From Gordius sp. MW1 (Eukaryota; Nematomorpha; Gordioida; Gordea; Gordiidae): a stretch of DNA of 64,000 nt. Shown here piece after piece: positions 17,929 to 55,960 of this stretch (position 1 is the first letter of the stretch; each line of letters starts with the position of its first letter). Under the pieces are notes generated by a model. The model worked only from the letters and a program-made list of their open reading frames with translations, was not told the DNA's origin and did not search any database. A program made the position numbers and the translations under genes. Location: NCBI GenBank assembly GCA_964036665.1, contig OZ038533.1, positions 19,712,575 to 19,776,574 on the forward strand. The letters are read 5' to 3'.

Positions 17929-19613
17929 TCAGTTATTTGGTCCCACATTCGTGAGGTTTGTTTTGATAAGTTTCTTCCATCTTGACCGAGTGAGTGCCAT
18001 GTCTTGACTTATCTTCTTAGTTTTCATAACTTTATCGACTTGCCCTTTCCACGTGACACGGGGTCGTCCTCTTCCTCTCTTCCCCGGTGCCTCCATGTCC
18101 AGTACTTTTCGCTTTACGTCATCCGTGTCCATTCTTAGTATATGCCCATACCACCTTAGCCAATTTTTGTTAATCATGTCCGCCATAGGTTGAATACCCC
18201 TTTTTGTCATGAGAAAGTCATTCGTCATATGGGCGAGCTTAGTATACCTTAAGCTCCACCGTATCATTCTCATCTCTGTGACTTAATAGCTTTCCTTCCG
18301 TGGTGTTTAATGCCCATGTTTCACATCCATATAGTAACACCGGTCTTACGATGGATTTGTAAGCTTTGCTCTTCAACCATATTGGCATCTTCTTGTCGCA
18401 CATTACACCAGATAAACTTCGCCATTTAAGCCATCCTTTTTGGATCCGGGCATTGACTTCCGTTGCGCAACCTCTCTCTTGATGTAGCATCGAGCCAAGA
18501 TATGTAAATCTGCCTGCTTTTGGGTACTTTAGATGGTCATCCAGTGAGAAGGTGCCTGTAACGTTCATTTCCATGTATACCGTTTTTCGATCGTTGACCT
18601 TCAAACCATATCCAGCTAAGCGCTTTGACCACTTTTCGGCTTCATCGAATACTTCTCCCTTGTTTCGCATATTACTATATCATCGGCATACACACAATGG
18701 CGATGGCTTTTGAATGTCCCTCGTTATCGTGTCTATAATTATATTAAATAAAAAGAGACTTAAAGCAGAGCCTTGATGTAATCCAATATTTACCCGAAAA
18801 GGTTTAGAGTCTCCAACTGTCCTAACGCAAAGATCTGAGGCTTCATAAATATTTTTCATAAGCCGTATTATATATGCGTCAGGGATATTTTGTTTTCTCA
18901 GGCACCACCATATTAAATCGCGGACCGTGTTGTAGTCGATAAAAACCATATGTAGGTCTTTCCTCTTTTCACCACACTTATCCATCATTTGTCTTAGGGC
19001 TAAGATTGGGTCGATTGTGGAGGCCACAAATCCGAATTGATTAGCCGATATTTCCACCTCGTTTTTTAGCCTTGTTACTAAGATCCTTTCCATAAGCTTC
19101 AAGGAGTGGCAAGTTAGCTTGATACCTCTGTAATTGTTACAGTCCTGAGGGTCTCCTTAGCCTTTAAATAAGGGTATTATCGTGCTTGCTCTACAGTGAT
19201 TAGAAATTCGCTCTTCTACCAATATCTCGTTAAGGAGGTTCGTCATGGTGGTGACTCCTTCTTCACGACATCCGAGCAAAGCTTCCATATATTCCATCTG
19301 GGCCATTTGCATTTCTTTTTTGCATCTTGTTCATTTGTGTCCTAACTTCATCCTCCTGAAAGAGTTCGACCATGCTTATATTTGGCTCAATTTTGGGAAG
19401 AGAATCCTTGTCATTTGCAATATTCATAAGTTTTTTAAAATATCTATTCCACTTTTCCATCACTTGATTCTGCTTGAATAAAGTTTGACCCTTCTCGTTT
19501 TTGACTATATTAAGAACTCCGACATCGCGACTTTTCTTCTCCCTAATCTTGGCCAATTTGTACATAAACCTATCGCCCCCTTTATGATCCAGTTTGGCCA
19601 TCTCGGCGTACAC
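17929..19613 (-). pseudogene. RTE reverse transcriptase and C-terminal domain, broken
   Basis: The minus strand encodes ANGPDGI (19263-19613), ANQFGFV, MVFIDYNTVRDLIWW, GLHQGSALSLFLF (18680-19102), then after a frameshift VYADDIVICE at ~18680, LAGYGLKVNDRKT, TYLGS (18239-18670) and the C-terminal LRWYGHILRM and GKRGRGRPRVTWKG (17929-18273). The YADD catalytic core is intact. Motif A appears to lack a few codons between FIDY and TVRDL. At least four frame changes exist, so no functional protein is expected. Confidence 0.85.
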
Positions 19614-19948
19614 GGCATTCTTCGCTTTTGCATCGGCCTTATTTGCGGCCTCTTTGCGTCCCTATACTCTTGCTAATCCTCCGACTTTTTTGATTTATGC
19701 CACCGTCTATATAGATTTTTCTTTCTTTCGATGTGATCTTAACCCGATTGATCCCACCACCATAGTTCCCTATTCATAGCTTTGCATTCTTTGGTCTGTC
19801 CTATAACACGAATCGCTGTTTCCTTAATGTCCTTAGATAGCGTCTCCCAATCGTCGTCTACGTCCTTTGGCAACTTCCTTGCACCCAAGAGGGAGGAGGC
19901 TTTTTATTGGTATTCTTCGTTCGTCGATGTATCCTTTAGCCTTTCGTA

Positions 19949-20715
19949 TCAAATTCGAGGTTCATAGACCTTTCTTCTTTCGGGAAACCCTCTTCTGTCA
20001 AGATCCATAACAAGGGGACGATGTTGCCTGGCGGTTTCTTCTCCCGGTATTACTTTGCAATCCTTGATACTCCATAAGTCTTTTCGCCGTACAAGCAAAT
20101 AGTCAATTTGACTGAAATGCTTTCCACTTCTATAGGTCACAATATGATCTTCGCGCTTTTGAAAATACGTATTAACGATCGCCATGTCATATGCTTGGGA
20201 TACTTGGAAAAGTTTTTCCCTTTCTTTGTTCTTCAGACCATGCCCATAGCCTCCATGATTGCGTTCATACCCGAGGCGACCTTTTCCTACGTGAGCGTTG
20301 AAATCGGCCCCAATAATTAGCCTTTCTTCCTCTTCTATCCCTTGTATTTTCTTTTCCATTGAATCAAAGAATATGTCTTCTCCAATTCATTACACCCAAT
20401 TTGGGGAGCATACGCGCACATAACGGTTAAGAGGCCCCCTTGATCTGCAATCTTCACCCACATAAGCCTGTCGGAACAACGCTTGACTTCCACCACCCTG
20501 TCCTTGAACGATTCGCTTAGAACGATACCGACCCCGTTTCTAAGATTTGGTGACCCACTGTAGAAAAGCTTGTATCCTTCTCCTAATTCCCGAGCTTTCG
20601 TTCCGTTCCACCTCGTCTCTTGTAAGCAGGCGATGTGTACCTTTCTTCTTTTTAGGCAACCTCGATGCTCTTCCCCGTCAACGTGCCCACATTAAAGCAC
20701 GTTGTTCGCATTCTT
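19949..20715 (-). pseudogene. RTE AP-endonuclease domain, frameshifted
   Basis: The minus strand from ~20715 reads (in pieces) FNVGTLTGKSIEVA, RWNGTKARELG, YKLFYSGSPNLRNGVGIV, VMCAYAPQIG. It then continues in the frame at 19949-20359 with IIGADFNAHVG, SQIDYLLVRR and RQHRPLVMDL. These correspond to the endonuclease motifs that nick target DNA during target-primed reverse transcription: the ADFN block, the S-x-I-D-Y block and the final H. The long frame starts only at 20359, because frameshifts near 20380 and ~20640 separate the N-terminal part. Confidence 0.8.
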
Positions 20716-25889: not shown

Positions 25890-26975
25890 CTGAATGAATT
25901 ATTAAACAATTTTCGCAATTTAAATTGCAGGTATTTCTGTTTTCGAGTATACCACTAATTAATGTCTTAGGGATAAATACACGTTTTTTTTCTTTATTAT
26001 AAAGGCGACCGTACAAAAATGAATAAAAATTCATTAAATTAATTTTTACAAGATTCTTTATGAGCTTCAAGATGTATATAATTCGCGATATTGTCAGAAT
26101 ACGAAAAAATATCAACATTATTAATATCAATTTTATGTTCATTAATCAAACGATTGATATGAAAATTGAGCCTTTCATATTTTCTATTCTTGTAAAAATT
26201 ATGTTTTCCTTGATTAATGGGTAATACATTAATATCGTTAATTTATTGAAGGGCTAACAAACTTTGGATAAATTCTAAATGGTGAGATGGGCTATTGCAA
26301 TTAAACACTATATCGCGTGATAATAACCCTCTAAATTTGTCAATGGACGTTCAGCCTCCAACCTTTGCAACATTTTATAGGGGAACAAGGGCCCTACCCA
26401 TGTATCTTCAATACAATCAAACCAATCTAAAGCTTCCGACGCCACAAAAATTTGAATACAATCATTGTACAATAAAATAATGTGTTGGGATATTAAAAAG
26501 GGGACTGCCAAAATTCTTCTCACACATTTTCGGCGGAAAATTGTGTTTTTATTGCACTACTCGTCCTCATTTTTCTCAAAATAGCTAGGGAAAAATGGAA
26601 TAAACATCCTTTATATATATGCAAGTAAAAATTAATATACCTTTAACTGCAGCATTAGGAAAAGAATCACACAAAGCCCTTAATGGTTTGCTCAAAATTA
26701 ACTCGCACATATCGTGGGAACAATGATAAGGAATACTCACTGCATAAATCTTTAATAGTTTTAAACAATAGAGTACAAGATGTTCTGGACTTGTCTGGTA
26801 AATATAACTGGCAGCACATGGTCCCAAAAATTGCAATGAATTGTGTAGATCTAGGGCAATGAAAATAATAATTAATCTATATAATATGTATACTTGTTCA
26901 AAGAATTGAGGACATACCTAGTATGTCCCATCGGCATATAAATTGCCACTAATAGCCAATTGTAGTGATTATGTA
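25890..26975 (-). pseudogene. MULE (Mutator-like) transposase remnant
   Basis: Downstream of the FLYWCH gene on the same strand, frames read NLYADGTY-stop-VCPQFFEQVY (~26940-26890), QTSPEHLVLYCLKLL and FPNAAVKG (26585-26836), DWFDCIEDTWVG and PLTNLEGYYHAI (26308-26523), then FIQSLLALQ and ERLNFHINRL (~26290-26150). This is the usual order of a MULE DDE transposase: the ADGT block carrying the first catalytic Asp, the mid block, the E-D-T-W-x-G block and the C-terminal helix. A stop after DGTY, several frameshifts and compression show it is dead. FLYWCH domains commonly precede MULE transposases, so this and the gene at 27026-28903 probably come from one element. Confidence 0.7.
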
Positions 26976-27025
26976 GCTAAAATCATCCAGAGTTAAGAGA
27001 ATTTATGTTTGGGGTGAAGTATAAT

Positions 27026-28903
27026 TTAGCTCTTTATTTTTGGAATTGGATGATTGTTAAGGCATATTCTTCTTAGTGTGTTTTTAACTGATGTTAATGT
27101 TGGTATTGCTTTCGGATAGTTTTTTAACTCTGGCACATCTCTCAGTCTTTGGGCAATGACCCGGTGATATATAGAAGACATTTTTTCTGCAGAGTTGTTT
27201 AAAACCTCAGTTTTTAACATATTAATTGTAATTATATACTCATAATCACCACGAGGAGGCTCGTGGTTATGATTATTTGTGACATGGCAAACCTCAGTCA
27301 CCTGAGCTTTGCCATGGCACGTTTTAGACCTGCATTTAAAGTAAGTTTTCTCTTTAAAAGTATTTTGTTTGGTGTATAAATAGCCATTAAAATGGAGGAT
27401 AGCCCCCTTTTTCTGAGATGCTAAAAATCTCATTGCTAAACAAACATTAAAAATAGATTAAAATATAAAAATAAGGATAAATTACTTGGTATGTTATTTG
27501 TGGAGGAGCATGAAGCCATAGTTAAACTTGTACCATTTACCACTATAAAAAAATAAAGAATAGCACCTTAAATTACTTGGAATGTAAGAATCTGTGGAGC
27601 ATGAATCCTTAGTTGAACTTGATCCATTTACTACTATAAAAAATTAAAAATTAGTATGTTAAATTACTTGGAACGTTAGAACTTGTTGAGCATGAATCCT
27701 TAGTTAAACTTGTACCATTTACAACTATAAAAAATTAAAAATTAGCACCTTAAATTACTTGGAATGTTAGAACTTATGGAGCATGATTCAATAGTTGGAC
27801 TTGTACCATTTACTATATAAAAAAATAAAAAATTAGCATGTTAAATCACTTGGAATGTTAGAACTTATTGAACATGATTGAATAGTTGAACTTGTACCAT
27901 TTACTAATATAAAAAATTAAAAATTAGCACCTAAAATTACTTGTAATGTTAGAATTTATAGGGCATGATTCAATAGTTGGACTTGTATTATTTACTACTA
28001 TAACTAATTAAAAATTAGCACCTTAAATTACTTGAAATGTAAGAATCTGTGGAGCATGAATCCTTAGCTGAACTTGTAGCATTTACTACAGTAAGAAAAT
28101 TAAAAATCAGCACCTTAAATTACTTGGAATGCTAGAACTTGTGGAGCATGAATCCATAGTTGAACTTGTACCATTTACTACAACAAAAAATTAAAATTAG
28201 TACGTTAAATTACTTGGAACGTTAGAACTTGTTTCACATGATTCAATAGTTGAACTTGTACCATTTACTACTATAAAAAAGTTATTAAATTAGCACCTTA
28301 TATTACTTGGAATTTTAGAGAGACTTGAGGTCAAACATTGGATACTAGTGTTTAGCATGGAATGTAAAATTTCCGTGCTGAAAACTATAAATATTTTAAG
28401 ACTGTTAAATTTAACACATAAAATTACCTCTTTTACTTGTGATATTTGAAGTAGAAGGCAAATCTTGGGTCCCATCCATTAAGCTTGTACAATATACTAC
28501 TTTATCAATTAATTATAACAAAGGATGAAATACTTGGTATATTAGAATTTGTTAAGGAGCTTGAAGGCATGGTTAAATTTGTACCAATTACTACTATATG
28601 AAATTACAAATTAGGATTAAATTACTTGCTATGTTAGAAATGTCATTAAGTGATTGGGACATGGAGATGATTTGTCTTAAGCCTGCTAAAAAAAATATTA
28701 TACTTATGCCAAAAATTTATACTTGTATGTGGGATATTTAAATGTTCTTTAGTAATAAAAAATGTATTTCCATCTTTTATAGCTCTGCCCAAACATTTAC
28801 TGTTGCGGCATCTAAGGTATATTTGGGAATTTTTTCCTGTTTTGTATTTCGTATAGTAAAAATTTTCATGGAAATACAGTGGTTGTTTTCTCTGCGTTAA
28901 CAT
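27026..28903 (-). CDS. FLYWCH double-finger gene with 13 tandem micro-exons
   Basis: Predicted 450-residue protein, 15 exons, all junctions GT..AG and all phase 1. Exon 1 (28903-28723) encodes FLYWCH finger 1 (YLRCRNSKC, then H-x5-H). Micro-exons follow at 28685-28626, 28593-28534, 28499-28437, 28384-28307, 28270-28214, 28177-28124, 28085-28032, 27997-27941, 27903-27850, 27812-27759, 27724-27668, 27633-27577 and 27542-27486. The last exon (27435-27026) encodes FLYWCH finger 2 (YFKCRSKTC..NNHNHEP) and a helical tail (LKNYPKAIPTLTSVKNTLRR), as in FLYWCH-MULE proteins. The micro-exons encode a Ser/Thr-rich linker with consensus VNGTSST..SCSTSSNIP. No stop interrupts the joined frame. FLYWCH fingers bind DNA; the linker's role is unknown. 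Start chosen: ATG at 28903; an additional 5' exon is possible. A decayed MULE transposase follows. Confidence 0.7.
27486..28685 (-). repeat. Tandem exon+intron duplication array
   Basis: Nine units of ~91 bp (27486-28270) repeat with strong identity: a 54- or 57-nt exon plus an intron (34-38 nt) of the form GTAATTTAAGGTGCTAATTTT..TATAG. The 54/57 difference comes from a second AG three bases on, or from the loss of one codon. Four more divergent units (28307-28685) keep the phase, the start and the SNIP-like exon end. Each intron has a CTAAT motif (branch-point-like) just upstream of a T-rich tract. Confidence 0.85.
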
Positions 28904-29540: not shown

Positions 29541-29989
29541 CTTCAACCTTGTCCTGGAGCAAATCAAATGAGATTAATTCTATAACAAAAATTTAGATCA
29601 CTTTTTGATAGATGTTCAGCTCTTTAACATACAAAAACTACATGCTCATATGGATTCCAACTAGCAATTTTATTACTGTGTCTACACATTATTAAGATGA
29701 GGGTTTGGAGATATTTTCCACCTTTAGTCATTAATTACGTGTAGCAATGATTTACTATAATTAATATTATGGATTAATTACAATATGGGGGCTATGAGAA
29801 TATATTGTGATAATGATTGCGATATGTAATGTTGAAATAATGATGTTGAGATAAAACACGTTATTCAAATAAGCAAGCGGAAAGAAAGTAATGAATGATA
29901 CGGTCAAACAGCTGGTGATACAACGCGTGGCACAAGGATAAAGAATTTACATCATATCTTGTCAACTCGTATTTAATATCCTACAAATA

Positions 29990-31003
29990 GTCCCCTAAGT
30001 AGACGTGGAGCGTTACATAAAATTGCAAAACTTCTTGGGCCAATGGACATGACGGCTGGACTTGGTGGTAAGGTTGTCTTTAAGCGATCAATTGAAACGG
30101 TGTCCTTTTTCCATTGTGGTCTATGACAAAATAAGAATGCCTTTCGATTACCTTGTAAGGGCCTTCGTACGGAGGAACTAAAGCTTTCCGAAGCCGGTCA
30201 ATTCTTACAAATACGGGCTGTAACCAAATTGTTGGTAATCTGTTGTTTGATATTTGATGGTCGGTGGGTGTGAAAAGAACGTGATCAAGCTGCTCCTGAG
30301 GTGTTGGATGTAATCAGCGGCATTTATGTCGCGCTTTGAAGGTTGCAAAAAATCTCCTGGCAGTCTCAAAGAGGTGCCGCATACCAGCTCAGCGCTCGAA
30401 CAGGATAAGTCTTCCTTGACGGTGCTTCGGATACCTAGGAGTAAGAGGGAAATTCGATGAGACCACTTGGTAGCTTTTTGCGGTAGAACTTTTTAGCTGT
30501 GGATGAAATCGCTCTACTATACCATTGGCTTGTGGATGGTAAGCTGTAGTGGTTATATGATGGTAACCTAATAAAACAGATAAGTGTTTAAATAGGGCAG
30601 ATTGGAATTGGGGCCATCGGTCTGTGGCTAATGTAGTGGGTACTCTGTAGTTAGCTATCCAATGCGTCACAAATGTTCGGGCTACAGTTTCAGCTGATGC
30701 ATCCTTGATTGGGATTGCCACGGGCCACCGGGTAAAACGATCGACTGCGGTAAAAATATAGATGTGTCCATTAGAAGGCGGTAATGGGCCCACGAGGTCC
30801 ACGTGAACATGACTGAATCTTGCGTCCGATTCCGCGAAAATGGCTGGGACTGTGATTGTGTCTATTAACCTTGCATTTTTGGCATGGATCGCACTGTTTT
30901 GTCCAATCTCGCCCTCTTTATTCATTCCCAGCCAGACGAAACGTTTGAAATCTGTTTTAATGTTGGCGGGAGGCTGGATGCGACAGACTATGTAGGTGCT
31001 CAA
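29990..31003 (-). pseudogene. Integrase of the CsRn1-type element
   Basis: 30389-31003 has RFVWLGMNKE (degraded zinc-finger end), HVHVDLVGPLPPSNGH, FTAVDRFTRWPVAIPI, LATDRWPQF (Gly to Trp after the second catalytic Asp), AYHPQANGIVERFHPQLK (catalytic Glu). After a frameshift, ELVCGTSLRLPGDFLQ and a C-terminal PPYEGPYKVIER follow to ~30000. Confidence 0.85.
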
Positions 31004-31079
31004 AAACTTCGCGTCGGAGGCTCTTGGGTACTAAGAGTCAATCGTGGTGGATGTATCGCAGGTAAGGGTTAAACTCGTA

Positions 31080-32411
31080 CCTGGAATTGAACATTGATTC
31101 AATTTAAGGGATCCAAGCTCTTCAGTTGTATATTGTTCCCGCTTTTGTGACATAGCTATCTTTTCCGTTATTGTGGTATTTGTAAGTTGTATGGAGTCTA
31201 TCTATGTTCGCGAAAAAGCGTCCGCCACAATATTTGTCTTCCCTTCGATGAACTGAATGTCGGATGTAAATTGTGATATGTAATCTAGCTTTCGTATTTC
31301 CCGTGGTGAGTATTTGTCAGACTTATTAGTTAAAGCATAGGTCAGAGGCTTGTTATCTGTGTAAACTGTGAAGTCTTGCCCTTCTAAAACATGTCGATAA
31401 TGTCTTATAGAGAGGTAAATAGCAAGTAATTCCCTACCAAATGTGCTGTAGCGCGTCTGGGCCTTGTTTAATTTAAGCGAAAAAAATGATAGACCACTAC
31501 TTTCTCCATTTATTGTTGGTATAGGGCGGCGCCGATGGCGGTGTTTGACGCGTCGGTTAATAATGAGAGAGTGGCGCTTTCTACTAGGTGATTCAGGGTC
31601 GTAACCTCGTCAAGCGATTCCTTAGTCTTGTTGAATGCATCATGTGCGTCTTGCGTTAAAACGAGGGGTCCTTTTGAGTCATTGAGCAGATCAGTTAATG
31701 ACCGGAGGAGGAGTGCGCAGCTAGGTATAAAACGTCGGTAAAAATTTACTATACCTACGAAGCGACGAAGTTGTGTCATGGTTGTTGGGGTGGCAAAATT
31801 TTTGATAGCTGAGGTTTTGTCTGGTACCGGAGTTAGACCTTGTGGCGATACATGGTGGCCAAGGAAGTTAATTGCAGGTTGTCCCCATTCACATTTGCTT
31901 CCGTTAGTCTTGAGATCGAACTCAGGTAGGCGTTGGAAAACTTGACGGAGATGCTCTAAGTGTTGGGTGGTTGATGAGCTTGCAATTAAGATATCATCTA
32001 GATAGGCAAATGTAAAGTTCAGGCCTCGAAAGGATTGGTCGATGAAACGTTGGAAGGTTTGAGCGGAGTTACGTATCCCAAAAGGCATACGTGAATATTC
32101 GAATAGACCGAAGGGTGTGGTAATTGCTGTCTTTTTGATGTCGGCGACGGGAATTTGGTGGTAGGCTCGAACGAGATCTATCTTGCAGTAGTTGTTGTGC
32201 CGGCTAGGATGAGTGAAAAGTCGTGGAGGTGTGGGAGAGGATATCGATCTGGTACGGTTTGAGTGTTAAGGGCTCTGTAATCACCGCATGGTCGCCAATC
32301 CCCGTGTACTTTCTTTGGGACCATATGCAGAGGGGAAGCCCAGGGACTGTCCGAAGGTTGGATTATACCCAATTCAAGCATATGCGTAAATTCTTGTTTA
32401 GCTATTTTCAA
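31080..32411 (-). pseudogene. Reverse transcriptase / RNase H of the CsRn1-type element
   Basis: 32178-32411 gives [29 protein letters not shown] and DRYPLPHL. A frame change follows (motif A region, DLVRAYHQIPV, ~32180-32150), then 31510-32088 with MPFGIRNSAQTF, FAYLDDILIAS (YLDD), FLGHHVSPQG and the start of RNase H (LLTDASNTAIGAALYQQ). RNase H continues in another frame (DFTVYTDNKPLTYA, ~31380). Catalytic motifs are present but the reading frame is interrupted. Confidence 0.85.
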
Positions 32412-32699
32412 TTTAACGGGGTCTAGACGCCTAGGCTTGGCGTAAGCAGGTGGGCCTTGGGTGTTTATGTGATGGGCGACGTGATGCTTTACGTTAACCT
32501 TGTAATTAAGGGGGGGGGGGTATAAATTTCAGGGAATTCCTTTAATAAACTTGCGAATTCATTCACTAACGGTTGGGAGCAAGACTTAATTCTTGAAGAT
32601 GTTATTGAGGTGGGTACACTATTTGATATTGTTGCTGTCTGTGGGTCTATCAACCTTTTCCTTCTTAAATCTACTGTGAGATTGATAAAATCAAGAAAT

Positions 32700-32945
32700 C
32701 CGCCCTTAAAATGGGTGTTTTATTGTCTGCGATCGTAAATACCCCCTGAACGTTTTTCGCAAACCGAGATCAAGCGGTAAAGTAATTTGACCCTTTGGTT
32801 TCGATACAGTTGTTGTTGCTTGTAATTGAAAAGGGGCAGGTAGGGAACGTTGATTTGATTTAGGTGGCAGGACGCTGATGTCCGCGCCGACATCGACGAG
32901 CAAACGGTGCCCGGAAAGTTTGTCGATGATATAAAATAGGATACT
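32700..32945 (-). pseudogene. Retroelement aspartic protease fragment
   Basis: The frame 32706-32903 reads LVDVGADISVLPP, the flap-side region of a retropepsin. The active-site triplet is D-V-G where D-T/S-G is required, so the enzyme would be inactive. Confidence 0.7.
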
Positions 32946-32997
32946 ACGATGAATATGACAGAGCTCGGGCGTAGCCTTTCCCGGCTGGTCTAGGGAT

Positions 32998-33786
32998 TTA
33001 TATCGAAAAACGGAACGTGAAGAAGCAGGGAGGGGTAAATTTTTTGGCGTTGCTTTTAAAATTTTTGTGGTACCAGCACACGTCGCTGGCGTTATTATCG
33101 TTAAAGGAAAGAGAGCGACGTGAGTTATAGAGGGGGAACAGCCGGTGAGTAGAGGACCTGGCAGAATTTTCCGTTAGTTTCAGAACTTCCAGTGATAATT
33201 TTTTCACCATCTCTTTTAGACTTGAAATTTCATTGTTAGTAGATAAGCTATGTATGGTGTTGCCCTGATTTGCCTCTGCGATCCGATCAGCCGTTTCAGC
33301 TAATTTTTACGTACATTGCTCAGCAGCGAAAACTGCGAGAATGTTGGTAAAATGACTAGGCAATTTATTAAGCCACATTCGCTTTAAAATCTCATCGTCC
33401 ATGGTATAATTTCCAATCAGCTGTTTTATCTGTCGCAGCAACTGCGATGGTGATCAATCCCCTAATTCCAAATTATTTAAAAGATTTAATTGCTGCTGGT
33501 CGGAGTTTAGAGTACGACGAATTATTGTTAGCTTGTTACGTTCGAAGGCGTCGTCTTTGGTAATGTCCTCGAAAAGATCTTGTAATTCTGTACAAACGTT
33601 TTGAGGTAATGCCTCAAGTAGCAGGGCCAACTTACTTGAAGGATTGCTTACTTTGCGCAGACGAAATAATGTTTCTATTTTTGCGACCCAAGCTCTGGAA
33701 TTATCAGCGGCAAAATCGGGAAGTTTGAAAAATTGCTCCATCGCGTCGAGTTCACCACTTTGGAGATATTTTCCACCTTTAGTCAT
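32998..33786 (-). pseudogene. gag of the CsRn1-type element
   Basis: The frame at 33454-33786 carries the conserved gag block PDFAADNSRAWVAKIE, LFRLRKVS, LLLEALP. A second frame (32998-33210) carries CWYHKNFKSNAKKFTPPC. The clade's nucleocapsid zinc motif is C-x2-H-x9-C-x3-C, and the third ligand is Phe here. The gag frame starts inside the LTR: the ATG at 33786 is 26 nt before the LTR end. An intervening stop (~33455) and frameshifts separate the two pieces. Confidence 0.75.
33741..33757 (-). other. Primer-binding site (tRNA-Trp type)
   Basis: Three nt inside the 5' LTR (minus strand) lies TGGTGAACTCGACGCGA. It matches the complement of a typical metazoan tRNA-Trp 3' end at about 14 of 17 positions. 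tRNA-Trp priming is characteristic of CsRn1-like elements. Confidence 0.65.
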
Positions 33787-34456
33787 TAATTACGTGTAGC
33801 AATGAATTATTATAATTAATATAATGGAATTATGGATTATTCACGATATGGGGGCTATGAGAATATATTGTGATAATGATTGCGATCTGTAATGTTGAAA
33901 TATGATGTTGATATAAAACACGTTATTCAAATAAGCGAGCGGAAAGAAAGTAATGAATGATACGGTAAAACAGCTGGTGATACAACGCGTGGCACAAGGA
34001 ATATAGAAGTTACATCATACCTTGTCAACTCGTATTTTATATCCTACAAGGGATTACTCAAATATCCCATTATTTGATATCCAACTTTGTAATAAGAGAT
34101 GGAAGAAAACAAATCCTATTATTTTATTATGACTATCTAAATGTTTTAATGCAAAAGCCATAAATTGTAGATGATTTTGTATCAAGTTACTTATAAAGCT
34201 TCCTTGTATAGAATATAATGATTATTTTAGGTAACGATTCTTTTAGGCAATCTCCTCTTGCTTCAGTATTATTATCAAAAGATTTATTTGATGAAGTTGT
34301 TATCCACATTTATATACAAAATTGTAAAATTTAGTTGTAAAAGAGGTTGCAAAAAATACATTAACCATTCAAATGTTCACATTAGTGTTGTAAAAAACCA
34401 AGGGTTTCTATTGGTCGCCTGCAAGCGTTGACGTTTATTTTCACCCAGCCTTATCA

Positions 34457-35367: not shown

Positions 35368-35762
35368 CAGTGTTAGGTGAATTTCCTTGGGGGAGCTTTG
35401 GCGTTTGGCGTTTTTGTAAAAAAGACCTAAAGCGTTCTGGGTGAATGTTTCGGGGTGACCTTTGGCGTTTAGGTTTGGGTGTATTAAACACCTAAAGGGT
35501 GTGGGTGGATAATATTATTAACCTTTTGGTTTGGTTTTGGTCGTTTGGGGTGGGGCATGCAAAGATATCAATTTTAGGTAATAAACTTTTAATTTAAGAA
35601 AATAAAAATAGTTATATCATGACGTCACTGAGTTTAAACTTTTCCCATTGTGACGTCATAATGAAAAGTATTGTAATTTATAATCTAATCTCTAGTAAAT
35701 TACAGTTAATTATTATGCTTTGCTTATGCTGCATTATAGAAGTAATGTTTTATTTATGAAAA

Positions 35763-36290
35763 AAGATGGCTAAAATTCGTTTAATGATTTCAAAAATTAT
35801 TTTTTAGACATGCCAAAAATTTTATAAAAATTTATAAAAGTGGGAAATTTCGCTTTGTAGAATCTTCTATAAAGATGGCTAAAATCTGTTTAATGATTTC
35901 AAAATTTATTTTTTAGACATGCCAAAAATTTTATAAAAATCTATAAAAGGTGGGAAATTTCGCTTTATAGAATATTCTATAAAGATGGCTAAAATCTGTT
36001 TAATGATTTTAAAATTTATTTTTTAGACATGCCAAAAATTTTATAAAAATTTATAAAAGGTGAGAAATTTCGCTTTATAGAATATTCTATAAAGATGGCT
36101 AAAATCTGTTTAATGATTTGAAAATTTATTTTTTAGATATGCCAAAAATTTTATAAAAATTTATAAAAGGTGGGAAATTTCGCTTTGTAGAATCTTCTAT
36201 ATAGATAGATGGCTAAAATCTGTTTAATGATTTAAAAATTTATTTTTTAGACATGCCAAAAATTTTATGAAAATTTATTTAAATATATAT
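35763..36290. repeat. ~117-bp tandem units in the left foldback arm
   Basis: About 4.5 copies of GATGGCTAAAATCTGTTTAA..TTTTAGACATGCCAAAAATT..GGTGGGAAATTTCGCTTT. Mirrored by about five copies at 37010-37515 in the right arm. Confidence 0.9.
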
Positions 36291-37009
36291 TTTTGAATTT
36301 TCTGCCTCAGCCAGGTGGTAACAATTTTTTTGAACATTTTAATATGGTTTAACTATATAATTTACACATTTGCTAAGCAGATTAATTGCGATTAATCACA
36401 AAATTTAATTTCAAATATATTTTGAATTCCTCGGCTCTTGTAAAAGATAAAGACTTATTAGTTATATAATGTCCCTTTTATTTAATATTTGTAGTAGTGT
36501 TGTAAAAACAGCTGGCTGGTTTTTCCCAGCGTATTGCTAAGCTTAGTTGTAAAGTTGTAAACAAGCTAATTAATATTCCTTAATCTCAGCATTTTACCCC
36601 TCTTTATGACAGAGCTTATGCGTCCGAGCACATATGGTAGCTATATATTTTTTATGATCCTTATAAGCATTGTAAACGCGAGGTCTAAGTCAACAGAATA
36701 GCATGATATGCTTTTTGGAAATGCCTTATTTATTTTCTTAACACTTGAGAGGTTGGGTCACCCTGCCCCCCTCTCCCCCGCATTAGAAAGAGGGTAAAAA
36801 AATAGGGGGGGGGGGAGGCAAAACACCCCACCTGCCCGCCGTTCCTCCCCGAATTTAAAATATATTTGAAATTAAATTTTGTGATTAATCGCAATTAATC
36901 TGCTTAGCAAATGTGTAAATTATAAAGTTAAACCATATTAAAATGTTCAAAAAAATTGTTACCACCTGGCTGAGGCAGAAAATTCAAAAATATATATTTA
37001 AATAAATTT

Positions 37010-37515
37010 TCATAAAATTTTTGGCATGTCTAAAAAATAAATTTTGAAATCATTAAACAGATTTTAGCCATCTATATAGAAGATTCTACAAAGCGAAATT
37101 TCCCACCTTTTATAAATTTTTATAAAATTTTCGGCATGTCTAAAAAATAAATTTTGAAATCATTAAACAGATTTTAGCCATCTTTATTGAATATTCTATA
37201 AAGCGAAATTTCCCACCTTTTATAAATTTTTATAAAATTTTTGGCATGTCTAAAAAATAAATTTTGAAATCATTAAACAGATTTTCATCTTTATAGAATA
37301 TTCTATAAAGCGAAATTTCCCACCTTTTATAGATTTTTATAAAATTTTTGGCATGTCTAAAAAATAAATTTTGAAATCATTAAACAGATTTTAGCCATCT
37401 TTATAGAAGATTCTACAAAGCGAAATTTCCCACCTTTTAAATTTTTATAAAATTTTTGGCATGTCTAAAAAATAATTTTGTGAAATCATTAAACGGATTT
37501 TAGCCATCTTTTTTC
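37010..37515. repeat. ~117-bp tandem units in the right foldback arm
   Basis: Reverse complement of the left-arm array (AAAGCGAAATTTCCCACC..TTTTGGCATGTCTAAAA). Unit numbers and small indels differ between the arms. Confidence 0.9.
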
Positions 37516-37937: not shown

Positions 37938-39054
37938 TGTAATGTTATATAACTTATGTTTATATTCGTTATTTATAATATTTTTTAGTTATATATACCT
38001 TGGGGATATGATTATTATTGTATCATATGTTTTGGAATTAGAATAAAGATTTCTTATTACTAAAGTGGCCCGGTTGAAGGAAATTATTGGCTAGTGTTAA
38101 TTGATGCTTTATCTAAATGGGTGGAGGTAGCAGTTATATCTTCTATAACTGGCTCGCAAATTGTGAGACAACTACGTAGTTGGTTTTGCAGATTTGGGAT
38201 ACCATCGAAAATAGTATCCGATAATGGACCCCAATTTGTTGGCGGTGAATTTAGAAATTTTTGTTTGGCAAACAACATAAAACACATAACATCAACTCCC
38301 TATCACCCGAAAACGAATGGATTAGTAGAGAGGGTAATAAGAACGTTAAAGTCAAGGTATTGGGCTGGAAGAAAGGGTGGGAGTGATAAGGAACTTTGTC
38401 TTTTGCAAATCCTTATGGCTTATAGGAACACTCCACAGGCGACGACAGGTAAAGCACCTTCGGAACTTTTATTTGGAAAAAGGTTAAGGACAGCATTTGA
38501 TTTAATTCGTGCGGACCCAAAAGACAAAATGAATCGAAACTTGTCAAAACAAAAATTTTACCATGATAGGAAGTCGGTAGTTAGGCGATTCGGGGAAGGA
38601 GATTTAGTGTGGATTAAAAACGAAAACTCCAGGTTGGTATAAAGGAGTGATTATGGAACGAAATGGCGAACACTCCTATAGCGTTCGTACTAACAAAGGA
38701 ATTCGAAGAAAACACGGAGATCAGTTAAGAATGCGATACATGTCAACAATTATACCAACGTCCGATTTTACGATCGAACAAAATATGGAACCGGAAAGGC
38801 AAATGATGGAAGAGGTTCCGTTAAGAAGGCAAACAATGGAAGAGGTTCAGTTAAGGCGTTCGACCAGAAAGCGGAATCCTCCGTTACGTTATCATGAAGA
38901 GTTTTAGCTTTTTAAAGTGGGAAGAAATGTAATGTTATATAACTTATGTTTATATTCGTTATTTATAATATTTTTTAGTTATATATACCTTGGGGATATG
39001 ATTATTATTGTATCATATGTTTTGGAATTAGAATAAAGATTTCTTATTACTAAA
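37938..39054 (+). mobile_element. Internally deleted mini-LTR element, very young
   Basis: 127-bp LTRs at 37938-38064 and 38928-39054 are identical by eye (TGTAATGTTATATAACTTAT..TATTACTAAA). A 5-bp target duplication CTAAG flanks them (37933-37937, 39055-39059). A purine tract AAAGTGGGAAGAAA precedes the 3' LTR. The interior is only 863 bp and begins mid-integrase; gag, protease, RT and RNase H are gone. Identical LTRs imply a recent insertion. Confidence 0.9.
38065..38907 (+). pseudogene. Gypsy-type integrase fragment in the mini-LTR element
   Basis: The frame opens directly at the 5' LTR with GPVEGNYWLVLIDALSKW, so the first catalytic Asp (normally a few residues before GP) falls in the deletion. 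The second Asp (IVSDNGPQFVGG) and the Glu (TNGLVERVIRTLK) remain. LLFGKRLRTAFDLI, FYHDRKS and GEGDLVWIKN follow. The frame stops at 38640-38642 and continues in another frame (38647-38907) through RRKHGDQLRMRY to the C-terminal RRSTRKRNPPLRYHEEF. One frameshift near 38640. No intact enzyme is possible. Confidence 0.85.
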
Positions 39055-52736: not shown

Positions 52737-54104
52737 TTATATAGTACGATTGTGGCGATGAAACAAAGGACGAACTTTGGCAAAAATTATTAGTCTGAAG
52801 TTAGGGTTAAAGGCAAAATTTATATAAAAAGTTAAACCGACGTAGAAAAACTCCATGACGTTAAAAACGGCATAAACTAAAGCTAAGGTATTTGGGTGAA
52901 TATCTAAATTGATCAAGTAATCCATTGTCATTTGCATTGTGGAAACGGGTAGCATGCACACAACAAACTCCACGCTTAGGATAAAAATCATAGTTATTTG
53001 GCATTGTAACTCTCTATCCACTTCTTGCCTAGTAATTCCCGATCTAAAACTTTCATCATTATTTGGGTTGTCTACCGGGAAATCGACATGCGGCACGATA
53101 TTAGTAAAACTATAATACTTGTAAACCAACCACAATTTGCAAATCACAATGGTAAAGAAGGGGATCCATTTAGTAAAAAGTTCCCTACTCACTTGGTAAG
53201 TCAACCACACCTTCCAAACCAGAGTTCCTTGGGTGGGCGAATTGATGACGTAGGTGTAGAAATAAGTACTAGTTGGGTTAGCATCACAGAGTCGTAAGAT
53301 TTCTACACGTTTCCACGCGAAGGTGGGGAGGTACCATAGGTAAGAATATATAAATGAAAGTAATATCAAAAGACGCACCCTGTTAACTGTTATTAAGGAG
53401 CGGTATTTTAAAGGCTCGATCATTCCAATGAGTTGGCTAATAAATAAGATGACATATATCATGAAGCTGACTACTATCAGCGGTTTGGTCAACGGTTTAT
53501 GCCAATGGGCCCAGTAATAATTCCACCCATAACCAGACCACCAATGAGTACTTTCTTTAGTGGCAGCAAAGTCCAAGGCTCCATATAATTCGCAGAGTGG
53601 CGAAATTATTAAAGTTAAAACGTTGAGGATATTAATGGCGTAAAACCATTTTAAAAGGTATCGACAAACGCTAGTACATGAATCATTTGATATCTTTGTG
53701 CAATGGTTATTTTTTGTCCTATGTGAATTATGGGATACGCTTCTGACAAGGTTGACTAAATGTGGTGCTTTGTTTTTAGCCTTGCCATTGTTTGAAGAAG
53801 ATGATAAAGTACCAATTGTTGTTTTGTCGTTTGCTCTCAATGGGTCCTTAAAGATATAGACTCCCAAAGAGTTACCCACAACTCCAAATATCAGGATAAA
53901 TAGGGCACAAGTTTCGTACAATAAAAAATACACTTTTCGATTCGCAATGATGTCCTCGATAAACAAGCATTCAGCGGTAGTGTTAGTGAAATTAGCATTA
54001 CTTTTATTCACCATTTTTAATAAGCCGTCGCTAAACTTTAGATCATATAAATCGTTGAATATGAAATTGATTCCCATTTCTAATGTCGAGCAATCTTTTT
54101 GCAA
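52737..54104 (-). CDS. Rhodopsin-like orphan GPCR, single exon
   Basis: 455-residue frame with seven hydrophobic segments at about 59-86, 150-172, 205-229, 243-262, 308-330, 366-392 and 405-433. The N-terminus (58 residues) has N-glycosylation sequons N-K-S, N-F-T and N-T-T. TM1 has the G-N-S signature (GVVGNSLG). After TM3 comes MIEPLKYRS, which aligns with the E/D-R-Y..H-P-L-K-Y-R region, but no D/E-R-Y is present. TM7 ends INFAFNPNFR, so N-P-x-x-Y is N-P-N-F-R. There is no Cys at the usual start of TM3. The loop between TM1 and TM2 is ~62 residues, Ser/Lys/His-rich, much longer than the family norm. The overall pattern is closest to peptide-type (FMRFamide/myosuppressin-like) receptors of invertebrates (inference). 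It would act at the plasma membrane through G proteins; ligand unknown. The start is the first ATG; one further in-frame Met is at residue 10. Confidence 0.85.
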   Translation of the reverse strand: MQKDCSTLEMGINFIFNDLYDLKFSDGLLKMVNKSNANFTNTTAECLFIEDIIANRKVYFLLYETCALFILIFGVVGNSLGVYIFKDPLRANDKTTIGTLSSSSNNGKAKNKAPHLVNLVRSVSHNSHRTKNNHCTKISNDSCTSVCRYLLKWFYAINILNVLTLIISPLCELYGALDFAATKESTHWWSGYGWNYYWAHWHKPLTKPLIVVSFMIYVILFISQLIGMIEPLKYRSLITVNRVRLLILLSFIYSYLWYLPTFAWKRVEILRLCDANPTSTYFYTYVINSPTQGTLVWKVWLTYQVSRELFTKWIPFFTIVICKLWLVYKYYSFTNIVPHVDFPVDNPNNDESFRSGITRQEVDRELQCQITMIFILSVEFVVCMLPVSTMQMTMDYLINLDIHPNTLALVYAVFNVMEFFYVGLTFYINFAFNPNFRLIIFAKVRPLFHRHNRTI

Positions 54105-55960
54105 GGCATTAAATATTAATTATACACATACGACCTTGAATGAAAAGGTTAAATGGATATTACAAAGCTTGTGTAAAATAAGGTAGGTGTTGTATATTAA
54201 TTTGAGAGAAGGAAACAAGATATTGGGTAGCTATTGATATGGAAATAATACATTTGTGCGTAAGTTTCAACCTGGCTTCTAATTATAAAAATAAATGATG
54301 AAAAGATTTATATCTTGTTAAATATTAATTAAGTTGTTATGCGTCATAGAGGTTAGAATCATATATTGTATATATTTATCGACTTTATAGAGTAGACTAT
54401 TATTTTTAAATTAACCGTCCTCGAACGGACGAATAGTTATTTTAAATTGTTATAAAAGATTAATTGTAATAAGCAGGATTGTAATAAGAATACAATGATA
54501 GAGCTAGAAAGTAAATAGTCTTGGAAAAAGATATTTTTTAAAAGAAACAGAACCATAAATTTAAATCGAATAAACAGCAGGTATTATAAATTACAAAAAA
54601 GGCATATTTAAAACCATAATCGAAAAAATTCTAAATAATAAATAGGACTTTACTAAGTTTTGCGCTATTGCAAATAAGTAATTTAAAATTTAAGCTATTT
54701 ATTTATCGTACGAATATTTTGCTGCCCAAATATGTGTTTTAAAATGAAAAGTAATTTATTTCACAATTATTTTCCTACAAACTTTTTTTTGTTGGTAAAA
54801 GATAGTTTATTAATATATATATCTGATTAAAATACAACATTTTTTATTAAATCCAATTTATCAAAGTCGAAATTCAAAAATTAATTTAGAATTAAAGTAA
54901 AATTATAATTTCTTAAATGTGACATTTTAAGGTTTAAACTAAATACCTGCTTAGCTCTAGCGTGCGGGTGACCTAAAAGTTGGTCGCGGCCTGATCATGG
55001 ACGGGCTTGTGGATTAGAAATTATAGGCCCAGCTTGGGGCACTAATAAGCTCGACCTTGGCTTAATTAAGTAAGGCCCGTTTTTATGGTTAAATGAAAAA
55101 TTATTTCATATAATGTTTTCATTTTTTGTATTTTAAAGTGTAAAAGTTGGTGGGTTATCATTATGTTTTTAAAATTTTATATTTACTGATTTCTACAACA
55201 ACGATTTAATCAATATTACTTTTCCCTCATCATTCATAAAATTTGTAAAAATTGGCAAATCCCGAAAGTTTTGATCCTTTAATAAGGTTAAAAATTTAAA
55301 AAATCAATTATTTTTTGTCAAAATTTCCTAAAATTAAATTTGGCATAAAAGGTTTTATGCACGATTGCAAGTGCTACTAGTGAAATTAGTTGGCAGATAG
55401 CTTGCTAGAAGAATTTATACTCGTTTCCTGATAATTATTGATAATTTGCAGGCGCCTATGGCTGCCTCTACTTCTAGCATGTTTATTATCGGACATCTTT
55501 AACATATATATGATTGACTACACATTGACAAAAAATAGTTTAAAAAACATCAAAATTATAAAGATCTTATTCTGAATGAGCTCTGGAGAAAAGAGAACCT
55601 ATCAAATGTTTATTTATTTCACTTAATTTATTTATAATTTTATTTTCGCCCTTACAATTAATATGAATCTCAAAAATCTTAACTTCCAAAACGAAAGATA
55701 TATTATGTAAAAACGTAGGGAATGAAAAATCGCGCGAAGCACAAATAATCACTACTATTTAATTATATTTTGGGAACCAATGACAAAATACATATATGTA
55801 CTCGATTGCTGGTCCATTCTCCAATCAGGTTTTTGTACAAACTCACAATGCGATGGTAATTAACTAATATGCAAAACGTGTGGTGAGGGGCCACAGTAAG
55901 AAGAATATCAGTAGTTTATTTATAGGCGAGAAACTGCAAATGTTCGCTTGCTAGCACTAT
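54105..55960. other. Upstream flank of the GPCR, no gene recognised
   Basis: AT-rich sequence. A GC-richer patch at 54955-55085 (GCGTGCGGGTGACC, GGCCCAGCTTGGGGC) looks like a repeat fragment. The frame 55567-55752 (-) is unsupported. Confidence 0.4.

Follow-up and report, generated by a model that had tools for sequence, protein, structure and literature searches.

Predicted gene structure between the two FLYWCH fingers

In the window analysed here, a 64-kb stretch (64,000 nucleotides) of a Gordius sp. MW1 contig, the minus strand carries at 28903-27026 an open reading frame that is interrupted by 14 GT-AG segments, and the question raised by this locus is whether the row of short segments lying between two FLYWCH fingers is coding and, if so, to what kind of gene it belongs. 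The gene model had 449 codons plus the stop and comprised 13 micro-exons of 54-78 nt, every one of its 14 introns being in phase 1, in agreement with the original prediction, in which the coordinates, strand, segment lengths, phase and open frame of 450 codons (stop included) were all correct. The model begins directly with finger 1: exon 0 (181 nt, 28723..28903), the end of which was taken from the splice-model parse, contains the start codon and FLYWCH finger 1 (PF04500, E 7.7e-5). Taken alone, this finger fell just below the Pfam PF04500 cut-off (23.2 vs 23.6 bits); finger 2, with 37 bits, was above it, and the spliced protein scored 47.2 bits against PF04500 in two stretches.

Downstream of exon 0, the splice-model parse placed micro-exons 1, 2 and 3, each 60 nt long and in phase 1, at 28626..28685, 28534..28593 and 28437..28496, respectively; by eye, the end of micro-exon 1, SLNDISNIA, is similar to PLDDISNIS of the sister locus L034, and micro-exon 2 encodes VIGTNLTMPSSSLTNSNIP. 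Micro-exon 4 (78 nt, phase 1, 28307..28384) was lined up by hand with an LNIENFRS-type micro-exon found in seven sister elements. A tandem array then occupies 27478..28319, for which Tandem Repeats Finder reported a 91-bp unit in 9.2 copies; it comprises nine VNGTSSTMDSCSTSSNIP-like micro-exons (micro-exons 5-13, 28270-27486) separated by short GT-AG introns of mostly 34-38 nt. In each unit, an intron of the form GTAATTTAAGGTGCTAATTTTTAATTTTTTATAG accompanies an exon of 54-57 nt; acceptors 3 nt apart, both of which keep the frame, make the exon 54 or 57 nt long. What lies between the fingers is thus four single micro-exons and nine copies of one unit. The recognition of nine segments as tandem copies of one exon stands, whereas the description of all thirteen units as independent does not, since nine are copies and micro-exon 2, with a 79% DNA match, is related to the array unit but has diverged from it.

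The last exon (27026..27435) encodes finger 2 and the start of a transposase, and terminates at a stop where its relatives continue reading. The 449-codon reading uses the last acceptor at 27435, which we prefer to the one at 27420 picked by the gene-model search itself, as in the models of L034, L035 and L036; both acceptors are in frame. Because all 14 junctions are in phase 1, every combination of exons remains in frame, and it is conceivable, though somewhat doubtful, that the micro-exons are real but each skippable, with many linker lengths per element produced by alternative splicing. Such a use of the exons, which would be compatible with the explanation preferred below, is favoured by the acceptor pairs 3 nt apart in several units, but short introns with similar signals may equally be spliced constitutively.

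Splice-model parses and controls

The splice matrices, blind to the array, were built from 11 short introns taken from two housekeeping loci unrelated to it. These training loci were chaperonin-type genes reached with PF00118, in which splice sites were read by eye; of 14 anchor pairs queried, two with much longer gaps and one with a misplaced anchor were omitted, so that the matrices describe short introns only. Since the 11 training introns span 34-41 nt, introns of about 34 nt appear to be usual in this genome.

With the matrices trained elsewhere, the window parse (13 micro-exons, 14 phase-1 introns) reached a score of 63.8. Openness alone is no evidence here, because the parse search bars in-frame stops by design; it is the score relative to controls that counts. 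When the inter-finger DNA was shuffled with dinucleotides preserved, 69 of 200 shuffles could be parsed, with a maximum score of -0.9 vs 63.8 for the real sequence, and none of the parses having at least five introns was in a single phase. Because the nine units are copies of one, a control was added in which the alignment columns were permuted identically across the nine units, which leaves the repetition itself intact; of 2000 such array-preserving permutations, 665 were parsed, the maximum being 54.2, and none reached the real score. The shuffle control was also applied to sister loci (300 shuffles each), and L036, L034, L030, L033 and L051 each beat every shuffle that was parsed (62, 73, 61, 104 and 22, respectively).

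Relation to MULE transposons

In the sister locus L036, the frame continues past finger 2 into a MULE transposase domain, and PF10551 was detected in the protein pieced from this locus (E 1.5e-9, 38.6 bits, cut-off 27.6). A tblastn search of the window with the sister transposase gave matches in three frames (47, 44 and 51% identity) at 26022..27025 on the minus strand, a stretch corresponding to the decayed rest of a MULE transposase with in-frame stops, an alignment gap and frame changes. Four in-frame stops were counted there, in two of the three matching frames, some of which may lie in introns. Because the transposase is broken over three frames with stops, the window locus is, judging by its sequence, a decayed, dead copy of a Mutator-like (MULE) DNA transposon whose 5′ half is what the gene model covers, and not the stand-alone FLYWCH gene that had been proposed.

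Each of the 14 sister loci that were examined in addition to the window was matched, to a varying extent, by the transposase pieces of L036, and the DNA match of the window to L029, L035 and L044 stops near 26022..27025. Searches of the genome with finger 1 and finger 2 returned at least 150 matches each, the window included, with many finger 1-finger 2 pairs; among the matches listed, the best other match of finger 1 was that of L032, with 83% amino acid identity. Near-identical copies are dispersed on different contigs, L039 and L042 being 98.9% identical over 3.8 kb and L035 and L036 93.7% identical over 4.3 kb. With copy ends taken from pairwise alignments, direct repeats were found at the ends of three of the 10 copies examined (L034, 12 bp; L035, 10 bp; L039, 9 bp), the target-site duplication expected of a MULE being about 8-11 bp; no ends could be located for the window copy. 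Among the seven copies tried for terminal inverted repeats, the best end match was 19 nt at 89% (L035), the other six giving weak matches that were short and AT-rich; certain MULE groups are described as having no terminal inverted repeats (PMC6446971). A search of 5.8 billion proteins yielded four distant MULE proteins with 25-34% identity, none of them named.

Arrays in the sister loci

A search for homologous arrays beside other FLYWCH exons, as the original prediction had suggested, found them in sister loci of the same genome, with a repeated exon unit that differs among copies: it is 91 bp in the window, 155 bp in L029 and L031, 86 bp in L030, 89 bp in L033, 93-95 bp in L034, L035, L040 and L046, 93 bp in L043 and 151 bp in L037, L039 and L042, and two unit sizes are present in L051 (98 and 84 bp) and in L032 (84 and 155 bp). 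It was noticed by eye that L032 has a different array, with two alternating exon types and broken by an inserted repeat. In addition, L048 contains a 131-bp array (L048:5666-6076), the unit translation of which ends in TREHTDIPHS, like the end of finger 1; it may represent a tandemly copied exon including part of finger 1.

An open phase-1 unit parse was obtained for 17 of the 19 inter-finger array rows, both misses coming from one array of L047, and among these 17 rows phase 1 was best in 7, tied in 9 and worse in one (the 98-bp array of L051). Other array/strand rows numbered 65, of which 16 had any open parse and 6 scored at least 7 in some phase; only two did so in phase 1, both from FLYWCH-family loci (L044 and L048). 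Units were counted from local alignments that had been extended as far as the ends of the unit. The 63 aligned units from 13 loci, which, like the rows, include near-identical copies and are not independent of one another, all keep their length modulo 3 and all have an AG at one of the four allowed in-phase positions, and a GT is present in 57. Four of the six units without a GT appear by eye to be last units running into the next exon, and in L029 and L031 one unit lacks a donor. Stops or phase-breaking indels in sister units had been named beforehand as observations that would speak against coding; stops do occur, at a low rate (3 of 63 units, 60 being open), and phase-breaking indels were seen in none of the 63.

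Parsing of whole inter-finger regions gave models entirely in phase 1 for L034, L035, L036 and L030, one phase-2 exon each for L029 and L031, five for L051, and one, the last, for L033 when parsed to finger 2; no parse was returned by the splice-model search for L037, L039 and L042. In a longer parse, L033 is open from finger 1 to the MULE domain with all inter-finger phases 1 and with two predicted introns of 102 and 110 nt; its frame, read by eye after the end of the query, remains open up to a stop, and its transposase matches are stop-free. The parse of L036 extends to the first transposase intron, the extended parse of L029 requires introns of 98 and 108 nt, and L035, when extended into the transposase, gave no parse.

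An LNIENFRS-like micro-exon sits just 5′ of the array, the window version being a weak match. When eight elements were lined up by hand, this micro-exon was preceded by AG in 8/8 and kept the frame in 8/8, with pairwise identities of 0.63/0.63/0.44 at the three codon positions and 0.49 (ungapped) in the preceding intron. No processed intron-free copy was detected among the 6 and 80 candidates scored with two spliced-protein queries; L040 and L030/L041, considered as such copies, were dropped as deletion-fused or ambiguous.

Selection on the array and alternative origins

Comparison of the units within the window array revealed 45 nonsynonymous and 9 synonymous changes (pN/pS 1.53), spread 18/18/18 over the codon positions, and four comparisons between sister copies, each with few changes, gave pN/pS values of 0.64, 0.76, 0.85 and 0 (two changes). 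Judged by these values, clear purifying selection is not seen in the window array or in recent copies, as expected of transposon copies after insertion. Selection on the thirteen units, which had been offered as the reason for their openness, is therefore not borne out, nonsynonymous change in the array not being suppressed, and the family provides stronger evidence for a coding array than does selection within the window. Micro-exons had diverged more than introns in three of the four sister comparisons (e.g., 26/555 vs 11/400) and less in the fourth (2/624 vs 5/350).

It is unlikely, in our view, that the window copy was taken over as a host gene, the death of the catalytic half leaving a preserved 449-residue protein composed of the two fingers and the linker that joins them. 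Such a takeover would fit the contrast between 449 stop-free codons with 14 usable intron boundaries and the four in-frame stops and frame changes downstream, as well as that between the finger-2 stretch of L046, with 4 stops and several indels, and that of the window, without any; moreover, the domestication of FLYWCH transcription factors has been reported from animals (PMC10027918). However, finger 2 had accumulated 10 nonsynonymous and 4 synonymous changes on the window branch relative to the sister L046 (24 sites undetermined), which is not clearly below neutral, the array ratio given above points the same way, and the limit of the intact part was defined after the fact by the first stop. 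Slightly less likely still is that the array is a plain minisatellite, located within a single long intron or a spacer, with the fingers joined directly or on different transcripts. In its favour, minisatellites are listed for other MULE groups (PMC6446971), the exon parts show no higher conservation than the intron parts in three of four recent-copy comparisons, and a second open phase exists in several units. Against it, good unit parses are found in inter-finger arrays, on their coding strand, and are rare elsewhere, unit length modulo 3 is kept in all 63 units, and the LNIENFRS-type micro-exon retains frame and acceptor in all eight elements lined up, with the third codon position least conserved.

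Change in unit number and a proposed mechanism

L037, L039 and L042, which are 97.3-99.0% identical in aligned pieces, some of them overlapping the array, hold 10.9, 5.9 and 4.9 units, respectively. The reading of the micro-exons as a coding Ser/Thr-rich linker of variable length and copy number between two FLYWCH fingers, already put forward in the original prediction, appears from the sequences to be the best one. We propose, with a probability of about 0.8, that the gene order in this MULE family is finger 1, phase-1 micro-exons, finger 2 and MULE domain, and that duplication or loss of a module changes the linker in frame. An exon together with a minimal intron would form a minisatellite-sized module of only 84-155 bp, and its exon is symmetric (phase 1-1), so that each module duplicated in tandem or lost would mean one whole in-frame exon more or less. 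The module would be of minisatellite size because its intron is minimal, and frame-safe because its exon is symmetric; for these two reasons the linker, which is rich in Ser, Thr and Asn, could be lengthened by module duplication without a break of the frame. Gain and loss of modules may be driven by slippage or unequal exchange, and the length and sequence of the linker would shift fast while the frame survives. The introns would then be spliced, and the linker, translated and probably disordered, would space two fingers touching the DNA. Contact with DNA by both fingers is an assumption, because FLYWCH domains are not always direct DNA binders, the Mod(mdg4) isoforms being described as cases of protein interaction (PMC3169594).

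Comparison with known systems

The combination of FLYWCH and MULE domains, the presence of introns in such genes, and minisatellites in some MULE groups are each already known. Phantom and Muta transposons are described as MULEs with a FLYWCH and a MULE domain (PMC6446971, PMC5225508), and the window family resembles them in having an N-terminal FLYWCH finger and a MULE domain; the target duplications given are 8-10 bp for the Phantom group and 8-9 bp for Muta1 (PMC6446971, PMC5225508). Unlike these elements, the window family has a second FLYWCH finger, separated from the first by a micro-exon array, the account of Muta1 giving one FLYWCH finger at residues 24-92 (PMC5225508). Tm1-A, a Phantom-type element of root-knot nematodes, is described as having a FLYWCH-MULE gene of 7 exons, predicted partly from amplified cDNA, for 496 residues, and shares with the window family an intron-containing transposase gene of this kind and the presence of variable tandem repeats (PMC3169594). 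It differs in that one FLYWCH domain is given (residues 5-66) and in that its repeats are reported as units of about 14 bp in the terminal inverted repeats, not as exon-intron modules of the gene (PMC3169594). Tandem repeats tied to a MULE are also described for Rehavkus, where the minisatellite is C-terminal, and for aphid Phantom elements, where it follows the transposase frame (PMC6446971), whereas the units of the window family consist of exon plus intron and lie between two fingers. In the literature, as covered by open-licence PMC papers, we found no description of tandem micro-exons lying between a pair of FLYWCH fingers.

Schistosome micro-exon genes (MEGs) likewise have many short exons (3-81 bp), and these are symmetric. 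The 14 predicted introns of the window gene measure 32-65 nt and include none of the long introns by which MEGs are recognised. MEG proteins are described as secreted and MEG introns as reaching 5 kbp (PMC10526429), whereas the gene in the window is that of a transposase.

It is a tentative and rather improbable extension of the proposed gene order that active transposons use a coding minisatellite of spliced modules to diversify the two-finger linker repeatedly in successive lineages, at a higher rate than point mutation would allow. If true, this would rest on a genome in which introns of about 36 nt are common and on symmetric exon-plus-intron units, and the diversification of the linker would perhaps retune target spacing or evade host repression. 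The mechanism proposed in the preceding section already ties intron size to exon evolution, minimal introns letting exon-intron modules expand and contract like a minisatellite with the frame undamaged. With its many copies and differing units, a transposon family amounts to a large set of natural replicates, in which the rate of exon-number change, the splicing, and the effect on the transposase could be measured. Judging from the present gene model, genes of this kind would probably be taken for plain repeats by gene finders whose minimum intron length is set higher.

Surrounding sequences in the window

Rfam and tRNA scans of the 64-kb window gave no matches. Elsewhere in the genome, a 14.8-kb contig contains a cytochrome-b-like stretch that, by eye, is best read with the invertebrate mitochondrial code. 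LTR-retrotransposon-like pieces, with matches to reverse transcriptase, RNase H and integrase core in separate frames, lie immediately upstream of the MULE copy (29973-33789, minus strand), and a second LTR-type remnant is represented by an integrase core domain frame (rve, 54 bits) on the plus strand at 38064-38642. Several open stretches on the minus strand at 17929-20691 resemble a broken retroelement, with an RVT_1 match at 18680-19156. A 460-codon frame at 52737-54119 on the minus strand looks by eye like a seven-helix receptor; it matched no Pfam family and no solved structure. It was also noticed that two 110-bp tandem arrays, at 35762-36278 and 37002-37511, lie about 720 bp apart, and that their units are, by eye, reverse complements of each other.
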